From Phycisphaerae bacterium (GTDB lineage: Bacteria; Planctomycetota; Phycisphaerae; UBA1845), in assembly GCA_013360585.1 (NCBI GenBank), contig JABWBH010000022.1, positions 1 to 64,000 of the forward strand: a stretch of DNA of 64,000 nt. The letters are read 5' to 3'. Both the position numbers and the translations under genes were made by a program. Shown one piece after another: positions 4,447 through 13,101 of the stretch. Position 1 is the first letter of the stretch; every line of letters starts with the position of its first letter. The notes beneath the pieces were generated by a model. It did no database searches and had not been told where the DNA came from. It worked only from the letters and a program-made list of their open reading frames with translations.

Positions 4447-5697
4447 ATGTCGGATATGAACCCGTTCAAGATCGCACAGGCGCAACTGGATGAAGCGGCA
4501 GCCAAGCTGGGGCTGGATCCCGCGACGCACGAACTGCTGCGCTGGCCGATGCGTGAGTACCGCTTCACCCTGCCGGTCAAGATGGACTCGGGCGAGACGA
4601 AGATTTTTCACGGCTACCGGGTGCAATACAACGCCGCCCGGGGTCCGACGAAGGGGGGGCTCCGCTGGCACCCGGATGAGACGATCGACACCGTGCGGGC
4701 GCTGGCGGCGTGGATGACGTGGAAGACGGCGGTGGTGGACATTCCGCTGGGCGGCGGCAAGGGCGGGGTCACCTGCAATCCGAAGGAGCTTTCAGAGGCG
4801 GAGAAGGAGCGTCTCGCCCGGGCGTACATCCGCGCCGTGGGGCGTGAACTCGGCGTGCATCGGGACGTGCCCGCGCCGGACGTCTACACCACCCCGCAGA
4901 TCATGGCGTGGATGATGGACGAGTACGAGACCATCATGGGTCACTCGCACCCCGGGGTCATCACCGGCAAACCGATTCCGCTCGGCGGGTCGCAGGGTCG
5001 CGGCGACGCGACGGCGCGCGGCGGGTTGTATGTCGTCCGCGAGGCGCTGAAGCTGCGCAACCTCGATCCGAAGAAGACGACCTACGCAATTCAGGGCTTC
5101 GGCAACGCCGGGCAGTTCGCGGCGACGCTGCATCCGGAGATTCTCGGGGGCGGAACGATGCTGGCGGCGAGCGACTCGCGCGGCGGCGTCTTCTCCGCGG
5201 GAGGCATCGACCCGCACGCCCTGGTGAAGCACAAGCTGGAGACCGGCAGCGTCGTTGGATATCCCGGGACGAAGCCGATCACCAACGAGGCGCTGCTCGA
5301 ACTTGAGGTGGACGTGCTTTACCCGTCGGCGCTGGAGGGCGTGATCACGAAGAACAACGCCGAGCGGATCAAGGCGAAGATCTCCTGCGAGCTGGCCAAC
5401 GGACCGACGACGCCCGACGCGGACAAAATTCTGCATCAGCGGGGCATTTTCGTTCTGCCGGATTTCATGGCCAACGCCGGCGGCGTCACCGTCTCGTACT
5501 TCGAGCAGGTGCAGAACACGTACAACTACTACTGGTCGCTGCCCGACGTGCATGCGCAGCTCGACCGCCGCATGACCGAGGCGTTCAAGGCGGTGCATGA
5601 CATGCACAAGGCCAACAACGTGCATATGCGCCTGGCGGCGTACATGGTGGCGGTGTCGCGCGTGGCCGAGGCGTGCAAACTCCGCGGGTGGGTGTAA
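4447..5697 (+). CDS. gdhA: glutamate dehydrogenase (Glu/Leu/Phe/Val dehydrogenase family)
   Basis: This 416-residue protein catalyses reversible oxidative deamination of glutamate to 2-oxoglutarate and ammonia. Its length matches hexameric bacterial and archaeal GDH I/II enzymes. The catalytic lysine region [16 protein letters not shown], the [18 protein letters not shown] segment and the Rossmann motif [11 protein letters not shown] are all intact, as is the C-terminal [15 protein letters not shown] signature. The start ATG at 4447 has GGAG 9 bases upstream; an upstream in-frame ATG at 4387 adds 20 unconserved residues. Coenzyme preference (NAD or NADP) is not evident to me. It stands alone as a transcription unit, divergent from the mutase gene. 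Confidence 0.92.
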
Positions 5698-5740
5698 GCG
5701 GGGTCGCCGGCGGGACCGGGTTCGGGCGTTGGCGGAAAGT

Positions 5741-5801
5741 CGAGCCGCGCCCGTCTGTCCTTGACGTCGCGCCGCGACGTCAAGGGTCAGGAAGCATTCA
5801 G
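5741..5801. repeat. dispersed GAGCCGCGCCCG repeat, copy 1
   Basis: The first 25 bases (5741-5765) match 59128-59152 at 24 of 25 positions and the following 35 bases retain GAGGAAGCRTTC-like similarity, so the unit is about 60 bp. A shorter relative (GAGCCGCGCCCGTAAGGGAG) occurs at 57933. Both full copies lie just downstream of a plus-strand gene stop. Confidence 0.6.
5759..5785. terminator. perfect 13+1+13 palindrome downstream of gdhA
   Basis: The arms CCTTGACGTCGCG and CGCGACGTCAAGG are exact reverse complements separated by one base. The palindrome sits 61 bases after the gdhA stop and could act as a terminator or as an operator-like dyad; there is no T-run after it. A loop of one base is too short to fold fully, so the top few pairs would open in RNA. 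Confidence 0.4.
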
Positions 5802-5970
5802 GGAGGCCGCGAGGCACAAAGGCAACGGGGTGCAAAAACACGAAGAATGCCTGCCCCGAGTCCCCGAGTCCCCGGTGCCCGATGCGGCGTGTCCCGTACT
5901 GCGCCCGCCCGTCGCCTCGCCACCCGGTGGAGCGATGCCGGCAGCATGAAAAAAAATGTCCAGATTTCCC

Positions 5971-5999
5971 TTGACCGCCCGATACTCGCTTGGTAGACT
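5971..5999 (+). promoter_or_regulatory. sigma70-like promoter
   Basis: TTGACC (5971-5976) and TAGACT (5994-5999) are separated by 17 bases, and an A-tract lies just upstream at 5949-5956 where an UP element would be. This would start transcription near 6006, giving a leader of about 150 bases that contains the TTCCC tract before the gene at 6157. Confidence 0.55.
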
Positions 6000-6055
6000 G
6001 CGAGGCGGAGAGTGAGATCCGGGCAGGGCGGAAGGCGCCGCGTCGGTCCCTTTTC

Positions 6056-6129
6056 TTCCCTTCCCTTCCCTTCCCTTCCCTTCCCTTCCCTTCCCTTCCC
6101 TTCCCTTCCCTTCCCTTCCCTTCCCTTCC
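6056..6129. repeat. TTCCC pentanucleotide tandem tract
   Basis: Fourteen perfect TTCCC units plus a partial TTCC lie in tandem. The tract is purely pyrimidine on the plus strand, lies between the promoter at 5971 and the ribosome site at about 6143, and is followed by GGGAGC, which could pair with it in RNA. Slippage of a tract this long would change leader length or structure but not the reading frame of the downstream gene. Confidence 0.95.
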
Positions 6130-6156
6130 TTGGGAGCAGTTTAAGGAGACCGAATC

Positions 6157-6555
6157 ATGTCGAATCGTAAGACTTGTAAAAAACGGTTGATCATGAGAAT
6201 CATGATTGGATTTTTCTTTTCGGTTCCGGTTGTCAGCGCCGACGTCATCTGCGGATATGCATACAGTGATTTCTGCGGCGTGCCCGGCGGAGGCCCAAGC
6301 CCATGCGATCCGGGCAGCTTCTGGGATTGCGGAAAATCGTTTACATCGGCGAATTGCGGCTGTCACTACGATTCTGACGAAGACGGAAAAGTGTTGACGA
6401 CGGGTTCAACCATCTGCCTTACAGAGTATGAATGTGAGTGGTCCTGGTCGCCAAGCTCCTTCGGTTGCGTAATCGTCTGGAGTTCAGGAGTTCCCATTCC
6501 GCACCCGACTTGCACTGAAACGAGCCAGGACTGCGAGAATGGAGATCCTGTGTGA
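6157..6555 (+). CDS. small cysteine-rich secreted protein, unknown
   Basis: This 132-residue protein has a signal peptide (KKRLIMRIMIGFFFSVPVVSA, cleavage predicted after VSA) and a mature part of about 100 residues with twelve cysteines, including CGYAYSDFCG, CGKS, NCGCHYD and CTETSQDC. The many cysteines suggest a disulphide-stabilised extracellular protein. The ATG at 6157 has AAGGAG about 9 bases upstream. I do not recognise the family. Base composition is lower in GC than the flanking genes, and the leader carries the TTCCC tract, so expression may be variable. Confidence 0.7.
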   Translation: MSNRKTCKKRLIMRIMIGFFFSVPVVSADVICGYAYSDFCGVPGGGPSPCDPGSFWDCGKSFTSANCGCHYDSDEDGKVLTTGSTICLTEYECEWSWSPSSFGCVIVWSSGVPIPHPTCTETSQDCENGDPV

Positions 6556-6927: not shown

Positions 6928-8748
6928 ATGTCATGTCTCGTACTGTTGTGTTGGTTCGCGCCGGTATTGCAATCCACGGAATCATCACTTCCTCCTGATT
7001 TGAACTACCTGATTCAGCAGCGAACGGCATATCAGAACATGAGCGTCGAATGGAGTGTTCAAGCCCGGGCGCGCGTGACCTATTATACATCCAGGTTCGC
7101 CGGGCTTGATCGACTTTTTGTCAAGCGTGGAGACCTGGACGGTGTTGTTGCGCCGGAGACCAGAGGCCAGGATTTTTCCTGCTCGGTGCAGCATTATCTC
7201 ATCAAAGATGGGAATCTTTGGTCTTACTTGGATGACGACCTTCATTTACGTGTCGGATCGGAGGAGAGCCGTATTGACCCCACCTTCGATGTCCGAACCG
7301 TAGGGTTGATGCCAGCCGATCCTTCCGGTGTGACCTTGGAAGAATTTGTTGCGCGGCTCGAGGGTGTTTTTTCGGTCAGGGACGATGGAGAGCTCCGACA
7401 TGTGACCGCGGTTCTCCCGGACGGTGGAACACTGGAATGGTGGCTAGACCCGACAAAAGGTGGAGCCCCACATCGTTGTATCGCCCGTGATGCCGCCCGT
7501 CGGCATACAGCCGAGGCGTCTCTTTCCTATGACCGCTCGGCGCCGCCTTTCTGGTTTCCAACTCAGGTCACGTGGAAGGTGGACGGCGTCCTGAAGAAGA
7601 CGGCGAACTTCCATTCCGTATGCTACGACGATCAAGGGCTTGGAGACTCGATACCCTGGACCGAACTCGGCGCTTTTCCGGGACTCTCTGTGATCCGTGC
7701 CGGTCAAGAGGGCAAGCGAATGCCCATTTGGGATGGATTCGAAGAAGTGCCGGCGAATGAGTTTTGGTCGCGTGCCAAGCGCGGGGAAGTGGATTTGGAG
7801 AAGTTTAATGAACTGGTCGCCAGGATCAGGAACGGAGAAGGACAAGGCAGAACTCCCAAGTTTTATGATCCGGCTTCTCTTGAACCGAGGATTCTTACCC
7901 ATGCACCGAGTCTCTGGGAGGATTACACGCGGCGGTTCATTCAGCGTTTTCGTCTGGAGGGCGAGCAGATCGACCGGGCGTGGATGCATTTGAAGGAATG
8001 CCAGAAGCCCGCGTATGCCTATCTCGACGAGCAGAAGAGCGCCATCCGCGAGGCGGAGACGGAACGCGCGAAGGTCGCGGCTGAATTGGCAAAGGTCGAG
8101 GTCGCGGCTGAATTGGCAAAGGTCGAGGCCGATCGGGCGAAGCCTGCGGCGAATCCGTCGCGGTCGGCTGGGGCGAAAGCAAAATCCTCTGCCGGCGCCG
8201 GGACGAAGGACGAAACCTCCGGCAGCGCTCGGACGAAGGACGACGCCTCAGACCGTGATCGGACGAAGGACGAAGCCTCCGGCAGCGCTCGGACGAAGGA
8301 CGAAGCTTCCGCCGGTGATCGGGTGAAGGTGGACGCCTCCGCCGGGGGTTCCTCTCAGGAGCGATCGGCGGCCAAAGCTTCCGATCCCACAAGTGCGGAC
8401 GCGGCGGATGATGCCGGGGCGAAACCACGCGCGGCGCTCCAGGATGAACTGGAGAAGCTCGACGAGCGATTGAAGAAACTCTACGAGCCGATCGAAAAGA
8501 TCTTCGAGGAGAAGCTCAAGCCCGGCCTGGCGAAGCTTCCCACCCAAGCCCAGATCGACGCCGCCCGCGCTCGGGAAGGCGAGGCGTCGTGGAAGCGTGA
8601 TGCACGGTTGTGGAACCGTGATGCACGGTCACGCAGCGGTCTCACACGGTCGCGCAACCGTAGCAGCCCGTTGAAAAGGGGGGCGCCTCCCGGAGGGAGA
8701 CGCCCCCCTTTTCAACGGGCTGTTAGGGGCGGGGTTATGAGAGTTTAG
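6928..8748 (+). CDS. exported repeat-containing protein, unknown
   Basis: This 606-residue protein has a short N-terminal hydrophobic signal (MSCLVLLCWFAPVLQS) and a folded-looking domain to about residue 340. From about 365 it is a charged coiled-coil/low-complexity tail with AELAKVEVA duplicated, then five 10-residue units of the type RTKDEASGSA (residues 425-474), then a second helical segment around 500-530 (LDERLKKLYEPIEKIFEEKLKPGL). The last 30 residues are encoded by a large hairpin (8664-8722) and are probably not original coding sequence, implying loss of the ancestral stop. The ATG at 6928 has AAGGAG 8 bases upstream. I do not recognise the N-terminal domain; it may be a planctomycete envelope protein. 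GC is low in the first half and normal in the repeats. Confidence 0.75.
   Translation: MSCLVLLCWFAPVLQSTESSLPPDLNYLIQQRTAYQNMSVEWSVQARARVTYYTSRFAGLDRLFVKRGDLDGVVAPETRGQDFSCSVQHYLIKDGNLWSYLDDDLHLRVGSEESRIDPTFDVRTVGLMPADPSGVTLEEFVARLEGVFSVRDDGELRHVTAVLPDGGTLEWWLDPTKGGAPHRCIARDAARRHTAEASLSYDRSAPPFWFPTQVTWKVDGVLKKTANFHSVCYDDQGLGDSIPWTELGAFPGLSVIRAGQEGKRMPIWDGFEEVPANEFWSRAKRGEVDLEKFNELVARIRNGEGQGRTPKFYDPASLEPRILTHAPSLWEDYTRRFIQRFRLEGEQIDRAWMHLKECQKPAYAYLDEQKSAIREAETERAKVAAELAKVEVAAELAKVEADRAKPAANPSRSAGAKAKSSAGAGTKDETSGSARTKDDASDRDRTKDEASGSARTKDEASAGDRVKVDASAGGSSQERSAAKASDPTSADAADDAGAKPRAALQDELEKLDERLKKLYEPIEKIFEEKLKPGLAKLPTQAQIDAARAREGEASWKRDARLWNRDARSRSGLTRSRNRSSPLKRGAPPGGRRPPFQRAVRGGVMRV
8074..8127. 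repeat. 27-bp perfect tandem duplication
   Basis: Two identical, in-frame 27-base units (8074-8100, 8101-8127) encode VAAELAKVE twice in the coiled-coil segment of the exported protein at 6928. Confidence 0.9.
8200..8349. repeat. five in-frame 30-bp repeats
   Basis: Five 30-base units encode ten-residue repeats of the pattern (G/R)TKDEASGSA, with the first, third and fourth most alike. They lie without spacers inside the coding sequence at 6928, so this is a protein repeat and not a CRISPR array. Confidence 0.85.
8664..8722. terminator. 22-bp-arm hairpin, likely terminator or REP element
   Basis: The arms 8664-8685 and 8701-8722 are exact reverse complements over 22 bases (each contains GTTGAAAAGGGGGGCG or its complement), with an inner CTCCC/GGGAG stem in the loop. 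The distal arm contains CCCCTTTT. It would fold into a very stable stem and lies at the end of the 6928 gene, whose frame runs through it. It may terminate transcription in either direction. Confidence 0.75.
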
Positions 8749-8936: not shown

Positions 8937-10058
8937 ATGTCGGCGACGATCGCGACATTTGAGCGGCTGAAGTCGAAGGGGATCGCGGCCTTTAAGGGCG
9001 GGGATTATGCGACGGCGCGGTCGTATCTGGTGGACGCGGCGGAGTGCATGATCGAGCTTGCGGAGTCGGCGAAGACGGCGGAAGCGCGCCGGCAGCACGA
9101 GGAACTGGCGGGAGAGCTGGTCAGCCTGGCGAAGGAATGCGACGCGCGACGATCGCATCCGCAGGGCGCACCTCGCGTCCGCCAGCGGGAGAAGGACGAG
9201 GAAAACGCGACGGACGCCTCGGACTGGGTGGTCCGTGAGCGTCCGACGATCGGATTCGACGACATCGCGGGCCTGGAGGACGTCAAGACGGAAATCCGCC
9301 TGAAGATGATCTACCCCTTCGCGCATCCGGAACTGGCGGCGAAATACGGAATCACCGTCGGAGGAGGGATTCTCCTTTACGGACCGCCCGGAACGGGGAA
9401 GACGATGATCGCCAAGGCGATCGCCCGCGAGATCGATGCGACGTTCTTCCTTATCAGTCCCGCGCAAATCATGAGCAAGTGGGTGGGCGAGGCGGAGCAG
9501 AACATCAAGAAGTTGTTTGACGCGGCGAAGGCGGAGACGCCGTCGGTGATCTTCATCGACGAAGTTGAGGCGCTGGTTCCGCGGCGCAAGAGCGACGCCT
9601 CGACGGTCATGCAGCGCGTCGTGCCGCAGGTGCTTCAGGAGCTGGAGGGGTTCGACCGCAAGTCGGATCGGGCGCTGTTGTTCGTCGGGGCGACGAACAA
9701 GCCGTGGTTGATCGACGAGGCGATGCTGCGTCCGGGGCGGCTGGATGCGAAGGTGTACGTCGGACTGCCGGATCCGCCGGCGCGGTTCAAACTGCTGGAG
9801 ATTTACCTGGGGAAGAAACCGCTGGCGCCGGACGTGGAGTTCGGCGAGTTCTGCGACCTTCTGGAGGGATACAGCGGCGCGGACATCCGCAACATCGCCC
9901 AGCAGGCGGCGCACCTGCCGTTTCTGGAGGCGATCGGGGGCCAGCCGCCGCGTCCGATCGGCAGGTCGGACTTGTTGTCCGTGATCGAGCGTACGCCGCC
10001 GTCGGTGGACAAGGGGGATCTGACGAGGTTTGAGAAGTTCACCGCGACGGGCGACTGA
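8937..10058 (+). CDS. Vps4/katanin-like AAA ATPase with MIT-like N-terminus
   Basis: This 373-residue protein belongs to the AAA family and most resembles the meiotic clade (Vps4, katanin, spastin). Residues 1-72 are predicted helical with a FKGGDYATARSYLVDAAEC segment like an MIT domain. Walker A is GPPGTGKT (149-156), Walker B VIFIDE (204-209), sensor 1 GATN (251-254) and the second region of homology LRPGR with arginine fingers (264-268). The pore loop reads MSKWVGEAE, very close to the SKWMGESE of Vps4, and the C-terminus PPSVDKGDLTRFEKFT matches the Vps4 C-terminal helix pattern. The ATG at 8937 is chosen over an upstream one at 8817, which adds 40 low-complexity residues. Such enzymes pull apart polymers or membranes-associated assemblies; the target here is unknown. 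The next gene, 42 bases on, is the likely partner. Confidence 0.88.
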   Translation: MSATIATFERLKSKGIAAFKGGDYATARSYLVDAAECMIELAESAKTAEARRQHEELAGELVSLAKECDARRSHPQGAPRVRQREKDEENATDASDWVVRERPTIGFDDIAGLEDVKTEIRLKMIYPFAHPELAAKYGITVGGGILLYGPPGTGKTMIAKAIAREIDATFFLISPAQIMSKWVGEAEQNIKKLFDAAKAETPSVIFIDEVEALVPRRKSDASTVMQRVVPQVLQELEGFDRKSDRALLFVGATNKPWLIDEAMLRPGRLDAKVYVGLPDPPARFKLLEIYLGKKPLAPDVEFGEFCDLLEGYSGADIRNIAQQAAHLPFLEAIGGQPPRPIGRSDLLSVIERTPPSVDKGDLTRFEKFTATGD

Positions 10059-10100
10059 CGCGGGAGAAATGACGCCCGGGATGGGCTTGAGCCTGCAACG

Positions 10101-11927
10101 ATGCTGCGACGAGCGCCGCAACCTGATCCGCGACGGGAGGGGTCCGGCGGGACCGCGCCTTCGGCGGTGACGATCGACGCGATCCTGTCGTCTCCGGACG
10201 TGGTGGCGCTGCGGATCAGTGCGAGAGAGGCGCTCGACGCCTTGCGGCGGGTGTCGAGGATGCCTGCGGGTGGGATCGGACTGGCGTTTCACGAGGGCGG
10301 GGAGCGCGAACTGATTCCTGAAGGAGCGGATACGACGGTACGGGGCGTCGTCGAGGTGTTTGCCGCGAGGACATCGCCGACGGCGGTTGCAGTTCGGATC
10401 GACCGGCTGGTCAGCGCGGACGCCTACCCGGTCGAAGTGCGTTTGCAGGTTCGCGTCCGCGTCGGGTCCGATCCGGGCGACCTGACTTCATTGCGCGAGC
10501 GTCTGTCCGACGCAGGGGGTGTTGTCCGGCGGGAGGCGATTGCGGCGGAGTTCGCCGGTTCAATGAAGACCGCGCTGGCGGACGTTGCGGCGTCGATGCC
10601 GATGTCGGAACTGGCGACCGATGCGGGGCGACGGCGGATGACCGAAACGGCGCAGCGGGAACTGGAGCGGGCGGCGTTCCTCTGCGGCCTGATCGTGGAC
10701 GTCTCCCCGGAACCGGAGGTGTATTCAGAGGCCTACGACCGCGCCTGTCGTGCGGCGGAGCATGCGGAGCAACGTCGTCGGCAGCACGAAGCCGATGCGG
10801 CGCTGCGGGACGCGCGGCGAGCCGAGCATGCGCGGGAGATCGAGCAATATGCTTCGTTGTTGTCGAAGCTGGACCGGATGACGACCGAACATCCGGAGGC
10901 TCGGAGGGCGGACCTGATCCGGCGGTTCGCCGAGCCGGAGCGAGCGCGGTTATACGAGGGCATGCTCGCCCGTCAGCGGACGGCGCGGCGCACTGAATTC
11001 GTGGTGGCGGCTGCGGGGGACGAGGTGCTGCTGTTTTCGCCGTCGGATGGCGGGGCGCCGTCGCGGCGGATCGTTCTTCGGGGCGAAGCCGGTCCACCCC
11101 GGTCCGTCCGGTTCGTTGCAGCGGACAAGGGGCTCCGGATGCTTCTGGTCGGAGCGGCGACGGGCGTATATCTGGTGGACCTGGAGCGAGGTGAGATTCT
11201 TCAGGCGCGTACCGTGTCGGCGACTCCTCCTTCCGTCAAGGGTGGCTTTAATAGCGCAGCGCTGGCGGGAGGATGCATCCTTGCATCGCACTCGGAGCTG
11301 GGCCTGCATCGGTGGTCGCAGGATGACCTGGAGGCGTTCAGTACACCGGTAATTCCTGATCGGACGGCCGGGGCGTCATCGGTGCGGGCGGTACAGGTTT
11401 GCGGGGGGGAGCTGTATTGCGCCGCGGGCGGCACGGTGCTGGCGTGGGGGGTCGCGGAAACGAGCCCCGGGACGGTGCGCGAGCTTCGGGGCGCGCGATC
11501 GGTGATCACCGCGCTGTGCGCTACGGAGGCGCTCGGCGTGTTTGCCGGAACGGCGGACGGGTCGTTGCTGCACTGGGAGGGGCCGAATGAGGATCGCCCC
11601 GTCGAGCTGCATCTCGGGCGGAGTCGACCGGTCGAGTCCGTCAGCGTCGTGGAGTCTGAGGGCTTGACGCGGGTCATCTTCACGGACACGTCGCCAGCGG
11701 TTCATGCGAGGGTTCTGGGGGACACGGTGTCGTGGCGGTATGAGGCATCGGGTCAGACGTTGCGCCGGGCAGCTGCGGCGGAGGACGTGATCGCGGCGGT
11801 CACGGAACTGCGGGACCGGTTGATGTGGTTCGACGCCCTCGATCCGAACCGGCCCGTCGCGGTCGTTCATGTGGCGCGGGACTTCGGACACACGATTCAG
11901 GACGTATGTCTGGCGCCTGTTGCGTGA
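10101..11927 (+). CDS. SPFH-like domain plus coiled coil plus beta-propeller protein
   Basis: This 608-residue protein is not a named family that I recognise. Residues about 50-210 look like an SPFH/band-7 domain: a PAGGIGLAFHEGGERELIPEG opening, beta strands VEVRLQVRVRV, then the helical DVAASMPMSELATDAGRR region. A charged coiled coil follows (about 215-285, rich in RRAEHAREIEQ). Residues about 295-608 are repeated beta strands with GxxDGSLLHWEG and TGVYLVDLERGEIL blades, as in WD40-like propellers. No signal peptide or membrane helix is seen, so it is probably cytoplasmic or peripheral. The start has a weak ribosome site; a GTG at about 10168 is an alternative. It is 42 bases downstream of the Vps4-like ATPase and likely co-transcribed with it, which suggests a substrate or adaptor. 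Confidence 0.6.
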   Translation: MLRRAPQPDPRREGSGGTAPSAVTIDAILSSPDVVALRISAREALDALRRVSRMPAGGIGLAFHEGGERELIPEGADTTVRGVVEVFAARTSPTAVAVRIDRLVSADAYPVEVRLQVRVRVGSDPGDLTSLRERLSDAGGVVRREAIAAEFAGSMKTALADVAASMPMSELATDAGRRRMTETAQRELERAAFLCGLIVDVSPEPEVYSEAYDRACRAAEHAEQRRRQHEADAALRDARRAEHAREIEQYASLLSKLDRMTTEHPEARRADLIRRFAEPERARLYEGMLARQRTARRTEFVVAAAGDEVLLFSPSDGGAPSRRIVLRGEAGPPRSVRFVAADKGLRMLLVGAATGVYLVDLERGEILQARTVSATPPSVKGGFNSAALAGGCILASHSELGLHRWSQDDLEAFSTPVIPDRTAGASSVRAVQVCGGELYCAAGGTVLAWGVAETSPGTVRELRGARSVITALCATEALGVFAGTADGSLLHWEGPNEDRPVELHLGRSRPVESVSVVESEGLTRVIFTDTSPAVHARVLGDTVSWRYEASGQTLRRAAAAEDVIAAVTELRDRLMWFDALDPNRPVAVVHVARDFGHTIQDVCLAPVA

Positions 11928-12084
11928 GGGGCGGCGGAGAGCTGGCGGCTTTGCGAAGGCCCCGACGAGGCGGTGTCTGATTCCGCCGCGTTTTCGGATG
12001 CGCGGCGCTTGCATCGTCGCGGAAGCGGCGTATTCTCAGCGCGGCGGCGCGGACACGGCAGGTTCCATCCCGGAGGTTTTCGTC

Positions 12085-13101
12085 TTGGCGCGCAAACGAG
12101 GTCAGAACCGACGTCGCGCGAGCATGTTGATTGTGCTCGGTCTGCTGGCATGCGGCGGGTATGCGTGGTACTTCGAGGTCGGTCCGTTCTCGCGGAAGGC
12201 GTCGCCGGAACCCGAGCCGATCAGTCCGACACTGCTGGCGTCGCTGCGCTCCGAGGACCACGCGACGACCGGCAATCCCTTTCCTGAGGTTTCGGAGAAA
12301 GGCGCGCAATCCGCTCCGTCGAGCGGCCCTGCGACGCCGTCGGCGCCCTCGGCGGCGCAGGGATTGAAACTGATCGAGTCCGCGCGAGGCCAGATTCAAT
12401 CCGGGAATCTCATCGCCGCGCGGCAGCAGCTCTCCGAGGCGATGAACTCGGGGCTGGAAAGTGCGAAGCAGGTAGAAATCCGGGCGGAGCTGGTGCGTCT
12501 CGGTCAGGCAACCGTGTTTTCGCCGCGCGTCTACGCTGACGACCCGCTGGCGGGGCAGTACATCGTCGCGGGCGGAGACACGCTGGAGAAGATCGCCCGG
12601 AAGCACAAGGTGACGGCCGGTCTGCTGGCGCGCATCAACAATATTCCTAACATCAACCTGATCCGGCAGGGGCAGACGCTCAAGGTTCTGCACGGTCCGT
12701 TTCACGCGAAGGTGACGAAAAGCGCCTTCCGGATGGACGTGTACCTTCAGGACACGTTCGTGCAGTCGTTTCCGGTGGGGCTGGGAGCGGAGGACGGGAC
12801 GCCGACGGGGACGTGGGAAGTCGGCGAGAAGTTGGTGAACCCGACGTTTTATCATCCGCGCGAAAACAAGGTGTACGCGGCGGACGACCCGATGAACCCG
12901 CTGGGCGAACGCTGGATTGCGTTGAAAGGCGTCGCCGGCAACGCGGTGGGGCAGATGCGTTACGGCCTTCACGGAACGATCGAGCCGGACTCGATCGGGC
13001 GGAGCGTCTCGCTGGGGTGCATCCGGATGCACAATCCGGATGTTGAGCTGGTGTACGACATGCTCGTGCCCGCGCTGTCGACCGTGCTGGTGGCGGATTG
13101 A
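12085..13101 (+). CDS. L,D-transpeptidase with LysM domain
   Basis: This 338-residue membrane-anchored protein makes or remodels peptidoglycan cross-links, or anchors proteins to it. It has a cationic N-terminus with one membrane segment (MLIVLGLLACGGYAWYF), a proline/alanine linker, a short helical region, a LysM domain (GQYIVAGGDTLEKIARKHKV to GQTLKVL) and a YkuD catalytic domain with the HGT...SLGCIRM active-site motif containing the nucleophilic cysteine. I choose the TTG at 12085 because GGAGG lies 8 bases upstream; ATG codons further upstream at 11869 fall within the previous gene and add an arginine-rich extension. It is the third gene after the AAA/SPFH pair on the same strand. Confidence 0.88.
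   Translation: MARKRGQNRRRASMLIVLGLLACGGYAWYFEVGPFSRKASPEPEPISPTLLASLRSEDHATTGNPFPEVSEKGAQSAPSSGPATPSAPSAAQGLKLIESARGQIQSGNLIAARQQLSEAMNSGLESAKQVEIRAELVRLGQATVFSPRVYADDPLAGQYIVAGGDTLEKIARKHKVTAGLLARINNIPNINLIRQGQTLKVLHGPFHAKVTKSAFRMDVYLQDTFVQSFPVGLGAEDGTPTGTWEVGEKLVNPTFYHPRENKVYAADDPMNPLGERWIALKGVAGNAVGQMRYGLHGTIEPDSIGRSVSLGCIRMHNPDVELVYDMLVPALSTVLVAD

Follow-up and report, generated by a model that had tools for sequence, protein, structure and literature searches.

Does a bacterium that encodes a Vps4-like ATPase also possess the ESCRT-III proteins that accompany Vps4 elsewhere? The question is raised by a gene pair in a 64,000-nucleotide stretch of a Phycisphaerae bacterium (phylum Planctomycetota; assembly GCA_013360585.1, contig JABWBH010000022.1, positions 1 to 64,000), hereafter the window. 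The first gene, V, encodes a Vps4-like AAA ATPase, and the second, S, a protein with an SPFH-like domain and a beta-propeller. According to the literature, endosomal sorting complexes required for transport (ESCRT) of the ESCRT-III/Vps4 type are restricted to archaea and eukaryotes. No clear Vps4 homologue is said to exist in bacteria (PMC7615534); Vps4-like ATPases have been transferred to some bacteria, where snf7 was displaced by a TPR plus 6TM (six-transmembrane) gene (Ravi et al. 2024, PMC11237479). The archaeal ESCRT/Cdv systems comprise CdvB, the ESCRT-III protein, and CdvC, the Vps4 (Makarova et al. 2024, PMC10936438). Planctomycetes are devoid of FtsZ and their division is unexplained (PMC6952346, PMC5147048). 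We find that V is very probably the Vps4 component of an ESCRT system in bacteria: in relatives, it lies next to a gene, D, for an ESCRT-III protein, and D is also present in the genome from which the window derives.

A Vps4-type ATPase in a conserved gene set

On its sequence, V is confirmed as an AAA ATPase of the Vps4 branch. It matches Pfam AAA with 137.9 bits and Vps4_C (PF09336) with 27.5 bits, above the cut-off of 21.3. CdvC is the top NCBIfam model by score (residues 15-369, E 1.6e-70), ahead of CDC48 and the proteasome ATPases, although the score is far under the CdvC equivalog cut-off. Walker A (GPPGTGKT), Walker B (IFIDE), and the pore loop (SKWVGE) are all intact and mostly invariant among relatives. 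According to a tree of 53 AAA domains, from which eukaryotic Vps4, katanin, and spastin were left out, V joins archaeal Vps4 proteins (L118 and L149; support 88/83, fork drawn open), and the Vps4-like group that includes V is split from archaeal CDC48 with support 99/95. V also lies away from FtsH, its exact position being unsure because of the long branches. These matches and the tree bear out a sequence-only reading of the pair, which had recognized the pore loop and a Vps4-style C-terminus. The same reading had proposed an MIT-like N-terminus, which is upheld in part. When four archaeal Vps4 N-termini were ranked by a profile of the bacterial N-termini, two of them scored higher than 10,000 shuffles (E 8.7e-4 and 2.1e-3; 10,010 sequences), whereas Pfam MIT has no match in V. 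The archaeal Vps4 of L118 itself scores 19.5 bits with Pfam MIT, for a cut-off of 30. The MIT label is moderately supported.

Two other identities of V were rejected. Two-domain p97 chains come out on top of a PDB search with the single V sequence because their two AAA domains add up; V contains one AAA domain, not two, in 373 aa and is not a CDC48/p97. Similarly, V is not an FtsH: it shows no transmembrane-like hydropathy, AAA and Vps4_C fill the protein, and its best 25 Pfam matches include no protease domain. The same genome also encodes L003 (G000:C46, about 7144-7536), a TPR-AAA protein 468 aa long. Its AAA domain clusters with two archaeal Vps4s (99/92), and the protein is perhaps like the bacterial Vps4-like ATPases of Ravi et al.

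V and S are on the same strand and, as previously noticed, 42 bp apart. Scanning contigs for V recovered planctomycete loci at 52-98% identity, one archaeal locus, and two weak unrelated loci. The V-S pair is conserved: S or a fragment of it is found 3' of V in 27 Phycisphaerae loci, window included, the median gap between the two genes being 111 bp (range -38 to 958 bp). In another clade, L065-L078 (mostly 52-54% identity), V has no adjoining S. Upstream of V, 16-17 related loci encode a winged-helix/coiled-coil protein, A (about 500 aa), a coiled-coil protein, B (about 201 aa), often PspC, and D (about 202 aa), followed by V and usually S. The order A-B-(PspC)-D-V is found in 16 Phycisphaerae loci, mostly with S next, and D is upstream of V in 17; in L043, two small helical open reading frames (ORFs) and a PspC gene precede V. 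Related gene orders exist in other planctomycete lineages, where the operons are compact. For instance, L127 harbors an A-related gene, two further short ORFs that take the place of B, another AAA ATPase gene, D, V, and S, separated by about -28 to +35 bp. This second, divergent ATPase is encoded upstream of D at L127:6568-7761, L126:10051-11274, L129:8827-10059, and others; it shows a weak Vps4_C match in L127 (16.7 bits) and forms its own long branch in the AAA tree.

In the window's own genome, D, PspC, B, and A are on contig C52 (515-4681) and the V-S pair is on contig C48, 8.9 kb from the contig start; the locus is either split in this genome or broken by the assembly. This separation explains why no ESCRT-III gene is visible in the window. 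The sequence-only reading, which had reported no ESCRT-III or PspA-like gene, was right for the window, and the membrane-remodelling system that it had proposed for the pair gains support from the ESCRT-III gene upstream of V in relatives and from the same set in this genome.

Protein D, its neighbors, and protein S

D is an ESCRT-III protein, according to the resemblance of its modelled fold, a profile match, and a MIM1-like C-terminal end. The AlphaFold2 (AF2) model, built from 17 sequences, has a mean predicted local distance difference test (pLDDT) score of 71.9 and four helices (residues 7-49, 52-110, 115-153, and 162-201), in agreement with the alpha1-alpha2 hairpin and subsequent helices that characterize ESCRT-III. 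When this model was compared by Foldseek with 350,542 PDB chains, matches 1-15 were all members of the ESCRT-III family: CHMP2A-CHMP3, Loki CHMP4-7, CdvB, CHMP1B/IST1, Vipp1, and CdvB2. The best is CHMP2A-CHMP3 (probability 1.00, E 0.042). At the sequence level, a profile of planctomycete D proteins ranks the archaeal proteins L118 and L119 above 20,000 shuffles and detects an archaeal ESCRT-III gene in L135. The ESCRT-III gene of L118 directly adjoins an archaeal vps4, and its product matches Snf7 with 42.8 bits. Aligned by hhalign, D and the archaeal ESCRT-III pair L118/L119 match with a probability of 94% (E 2.2e-8) globally and 88.8% locally; a second archaeal ESCRT-III pair (L120/L124) gives no match with D. 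These archaeal proteins came from a wider archaeal sample, and PF03357 has no match in the archaeal genome of L080. PDB sequence searches with the D or A profiles returned no ESCRT-III protein, and one D matches Pfam Snf7 at 0.023.

The canonical MIM1 consensus is (D/E)xxLxxRLxxL. Of the 48 distinct D C-termini, 40 carry a relaxed, MIM1-like pattern of leucines, for 5.3 expected by shuffling; as these sequences are related by descent, the 40 are not independent cases. D of L108, L113, L115, and L097 ends in a sequence close to the canonical form. The role of MIM1 on ESCRT-III has been described (PMC7240154). The possibility that D is a PspA/IM30 protein (PF04012) was rejected: there is no PspA_IM30 match in representative D, B, or A proteins or in the D and A alignments.

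Among the other products of the locus, PspC is assigned by Pfam (85.4 bits). Profile-profile comparison relates B to the C-terminal part of A (96.8%), and both are ESCRT-III-like in layout and size only; hhalign of D against B found nothing with the first, low-diversity alignments. Several A members show weak winged-helix Pfam matches, and archaeal loci usually have a winged helix next to ESCRT-III (PMC10936438). The Pfam searches placed members of B, D, and A in no accepted family, the CodY, SHE3, and Lge1 matches being judged due to chance.

The AF2 model of S (mean pLDDT 87.4) combines an alpha/beta domain at the N-terminus with a long helix and a propeller. Propeller matches fill the Foldseek list (E down to 1.6e-11), and the propeller superimposes on the seven-bladed 7bid with a VIA Z of 29.5 and a root-mean-square deviation (rmsd) of 2.7 over 276 residues. 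Band_7 is weak in S itself (17 bits, under the 23.6 cut-off) and is found in 7 of 24 members of the S family, with a best E of 1.1e-6. Judged from these family matches, the N-terminus is Band-7-like, and the combination of SPFH-like domain, coiled coil, and propeller initially proposed for S is retained. The N-terminus shows no clear transmembrane segment, the best 19-residue hydropathy window of S (1.45) lying in the propeller (residue 467). Other planctomycete families (L023, L029-L038, and similar) have longer S homologues, of about 800-930 aa as read. Planctomycetes also have a beta-propeller protein with a proposed action on membranes, and planctomycete coat proteins contain an alpha-solenoid. 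By comparison, S consists of SPFH, helix, and propeller, and the alpha-solenoid is not seen in its model. The membrane-coat-like proteins of planctomycetes are the subject of Santarella-Mellwig 2010 (cited in PMC6524685).

Taken as a whole, the locus looks like a true bacterial ESCRT-III/Vps4 system. As in archaeal ESCRT/Cdv systems, a Vps4-type ATPase is encoded with at least one ESCRT-III-type protein and a winged-helix component, and the archaeal Meth_adaptin type also has an SPFH/coiled-coil protein in the locus (PMC10936438). Unlike these systems, the present one has a bacterial host, CdvA was not seen in it, PspC is part of the locus, the likely winged helix is N-terminal to the coiled-coil part within one protein, and SPFH is fused to a propeller. 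The MIM1-like C-terminal helix on the subunit and the Vps4 with a putative MIT-like N-terminus recall Asgard and eukaryotic ESCRT-III and Vps4 (PMC7240154), as does the best structural match of D, the CHMP2A-CHMP3 filament, but sequence identity is low. Bacterial PspA/Vipp1 (IM30) proteins likewise have the ESCRT-III superfamily fold and PspC and Band-7 partners (PMC8281802, PMC11237479). However, D has no PspA_IM30 match, its best fold matches are CHMP and CdvB ahead of Vipp1, and it comes with a dedicated Vps4. Finally, the ESCRT-III gene is kept here beside the Vps4-like AAA ATPase gene, whereas it was displaced in the bacteria studied by Ravi et al. (PMC11237479).

Several observations weigh against an ESCRT assignment. 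For V, the Pfam MIT match is missing. For D, neither Pfam Snf7 nor PspA_IM30 exceeds its cut-off, the best Foldseek E is weak, and the model is of middling confidence. Superposition by VIA gives a Z of 9.5 to CHMP2A-CHMP3 and aligns 102 residues with the Snf7 core at an rmsd of 1.4 Å. Helical hairpins from unrelated proteins, however, also score Z 8-9; it is therefore the Foldseek ranking, not the VIA Z, that carries the argument for D. Shuffles give no control for helical periodicity, and most D motifs have E or G at the position of R in canonical MIM1. B and the A C-terminus match neither archaeal ESCRT-III nor D by profile. In the window's own genome, moreover, V-S and A-B-PspC-D are on separate contigs.

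Distribution and possible roles

Among 246 sampled Planctomycetota genomes, 47 encode D, 43 S, and 42 both, leaving five with D only and one with S only (Fisher p 1.4e-40, kinship ignored); at least one of the "D only" genomes (G177) does carry an S-like gene. All 15 tested genomes that carry V with no D next to it, including the clade that lacks S beside V, encode D, which mostly adjoins A/B-like genes. The sample includes 15 further genomes of the class to which the window belongs (97-100% complete), none of which shows D, so the ESCRT system is patchy.

These counts bear on whether the ESCRT genes are archaeal contaminants or binning errors. Most of the genomes are metagenome-assembled, and the two halves of the set are on separate contigs in the window's own genome. 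However, dozens of independent genomes carry orthologues, several of them on long contigs; these genomes belong to many families, 22 of which are represented in the sample of 246, and V is just 31-37% identical to the archaeal Vps4s compared. Contamination is thus largely refuted by the breadth of occurrence, and we consider it extremely improbable.

They also bear on the function of the V-S pair. AAA proteases are known to bind SPFH proteins, HflKC among them, and V and S might form a membrane protein quality-control pair, as FtsH does with HflKC, the linked coiled-coil proteins merely resembling ESCRT-III. The weak Foldseek E of D and the commonness of helical hairpins would fit this explanation. 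It is unlikely: V, which lacks both a protease domain and a transmembrane segment, groups with Vps4 and not FtsH and accompanies D even where it stands apart from S, and D has both an archaeal ESCRT-III profile match and a MIM1-like end.

If V and D work as an ESCRT system, family membership suggests the following mechanism. D, and probably also B and the C-terminal part of A, would polymerize on the membrane as ESCRT-III filaments. The MIT-like N-terminus of V, as a hexamer, would bind the MIM1-like helix at the C-terminus of D; pulling on this helix, V would thread D through its pore to extract subunits. The filament would be remodelled or dismantled, leading to membrane constriction, scission, or repair. 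S may be a scaffold or an adaptor for cargo or site, and PspC a small membrane anchor.

Which process this would serve is less certain. Repair ranks first, with somewhat less than an even chance: in a device of the phage shock protein type responding to membrane stress, filaments would patch the damaged inner membrane, the SPFH protein and PspC would sense or anchor, and V would recycle the filaments. In many loci, as in the window's own genome, B and D are separated by PspC, although it is absent from many others. SPFH/Band-7 genes accompany PspA in other bacteria (PMC11237479) and occur in one archaeal ESCRT type (PMC10936438). No PspA_IM30 match was found in the window's own genome at 1e-4, so that D could stand in for PspA there; several D-bearing genomes also have PspA, however, which argues against a simple replacement.

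Division ranks second and appears doubtful. As Cdv proteins do in Sulfolobales, D, B, and A would form a constricting ring, V would disassemble it, and S and PspC would tether it in cytokinesis independent of FtsZ. Planctomycete division without FtsZ is unexplained, and Phycisphaerae have a binary-fission-like mode (PMC5147048, PMC6952346). We detected no ftsZ match in the window's own genome (97% complete) or in any D-bearing sampled genome. But 237 of the 246 genomes have no match anyway, with D or without; as nearly the whole phylum shares this absence, it is not specific support for a division role. Besides, division needs no D in the 15 other genomes of the class that lack it. Vesiculation is another possible role.

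More broadly, we tentatively propose that Planctomycetota possess a complete ESCRT-III/Vps4 machine of their own lineage for membrane scission, in FtsZ-less cytokinesis, budding, or internal-membrane vesiculation. If so, MIT-MIM1-driven ESCRT would exist outside archaea and eukaryotes and the origin of Vps4-driven ESCRT would be reopened. A conserved bacterial set changes the known distribution of ESCRT-III/Vps4. It provides concrete genes for two planctomycete questions, division without FtsZ and the formation of internal membranes and buds, and a small bacterial ESCRT for reconstitution. Our literature search turned up no account of an ESCRT-III/Vps4 system in planctomycetes, but subscription papers and most preprints were outside its reach, and priority is not established.

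Features of the window

The features of V and S are listed in table 1.

Table 1. Positions in the window of V, S, and their parts
Feature	Position	Strand	Evidence
V, Vps4-like AAA ATPase, 373 aa	8937..10058	+	Pfam, CdvC match, tree
MIT-like N-terminal helical region of V, residues 1-72	8937..9152	+	profile against archaeal Vps4 N-termini
Walker A GPPGTGKT of V	9381..9404	+	sequence; conserved in relatives
Pore loop SKWVGE of V	9474..9491	+	sequence; conserved in relatives
Walker B IFIDE of V	9549..9563	+	sequence; conserved in relatives
Vps4_C-type C-terminal region of V, residues 338-370	9948..10046	+	PF09336
S, SPFH-like domain + long helix + beta-propeller, 608 aa	10101..11927	+	conserved beside V
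SPFH/Band-7-like domain of S, about residues 34-210	10200..10730	+	Band_7 in relatives; AF2 secondary structure
Long helix / coiled coil of S, residues 210-263	10728..10889	+	AF2 model
Seven-bladed beta-propeller of S, residues 298-606	10992..11918	+	Foldseek, VIA

Upstream of V, a 606-aa ORF (6928-8748, + strand), not seen within the conserved locus, has a degenerate repeat in its C-terminal half (SGSARTKDEAS...). Just 5' of V, at 8669-8727, a long near-perfect inverted repeat, CGTTGAAAAGGGGGGCGCCTCCC...GGGAGACGCCCCCCTTTTCAACG, resembles the terminator of the upstream gene. Further upstream, the ORF at 4792-6366 on the - strand contains a short tandem repeat, one frame of which reads REGKGREGKGREGKG; the repeat is just downstream of a glutamate dehydrogenase-like gene. 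Directly 3' of S, at about 12085-13101 (ORF 11869-13101, + strand), lies a gene whose translation, judged by eye, is LysM- and L,D-transpeptidase-like.

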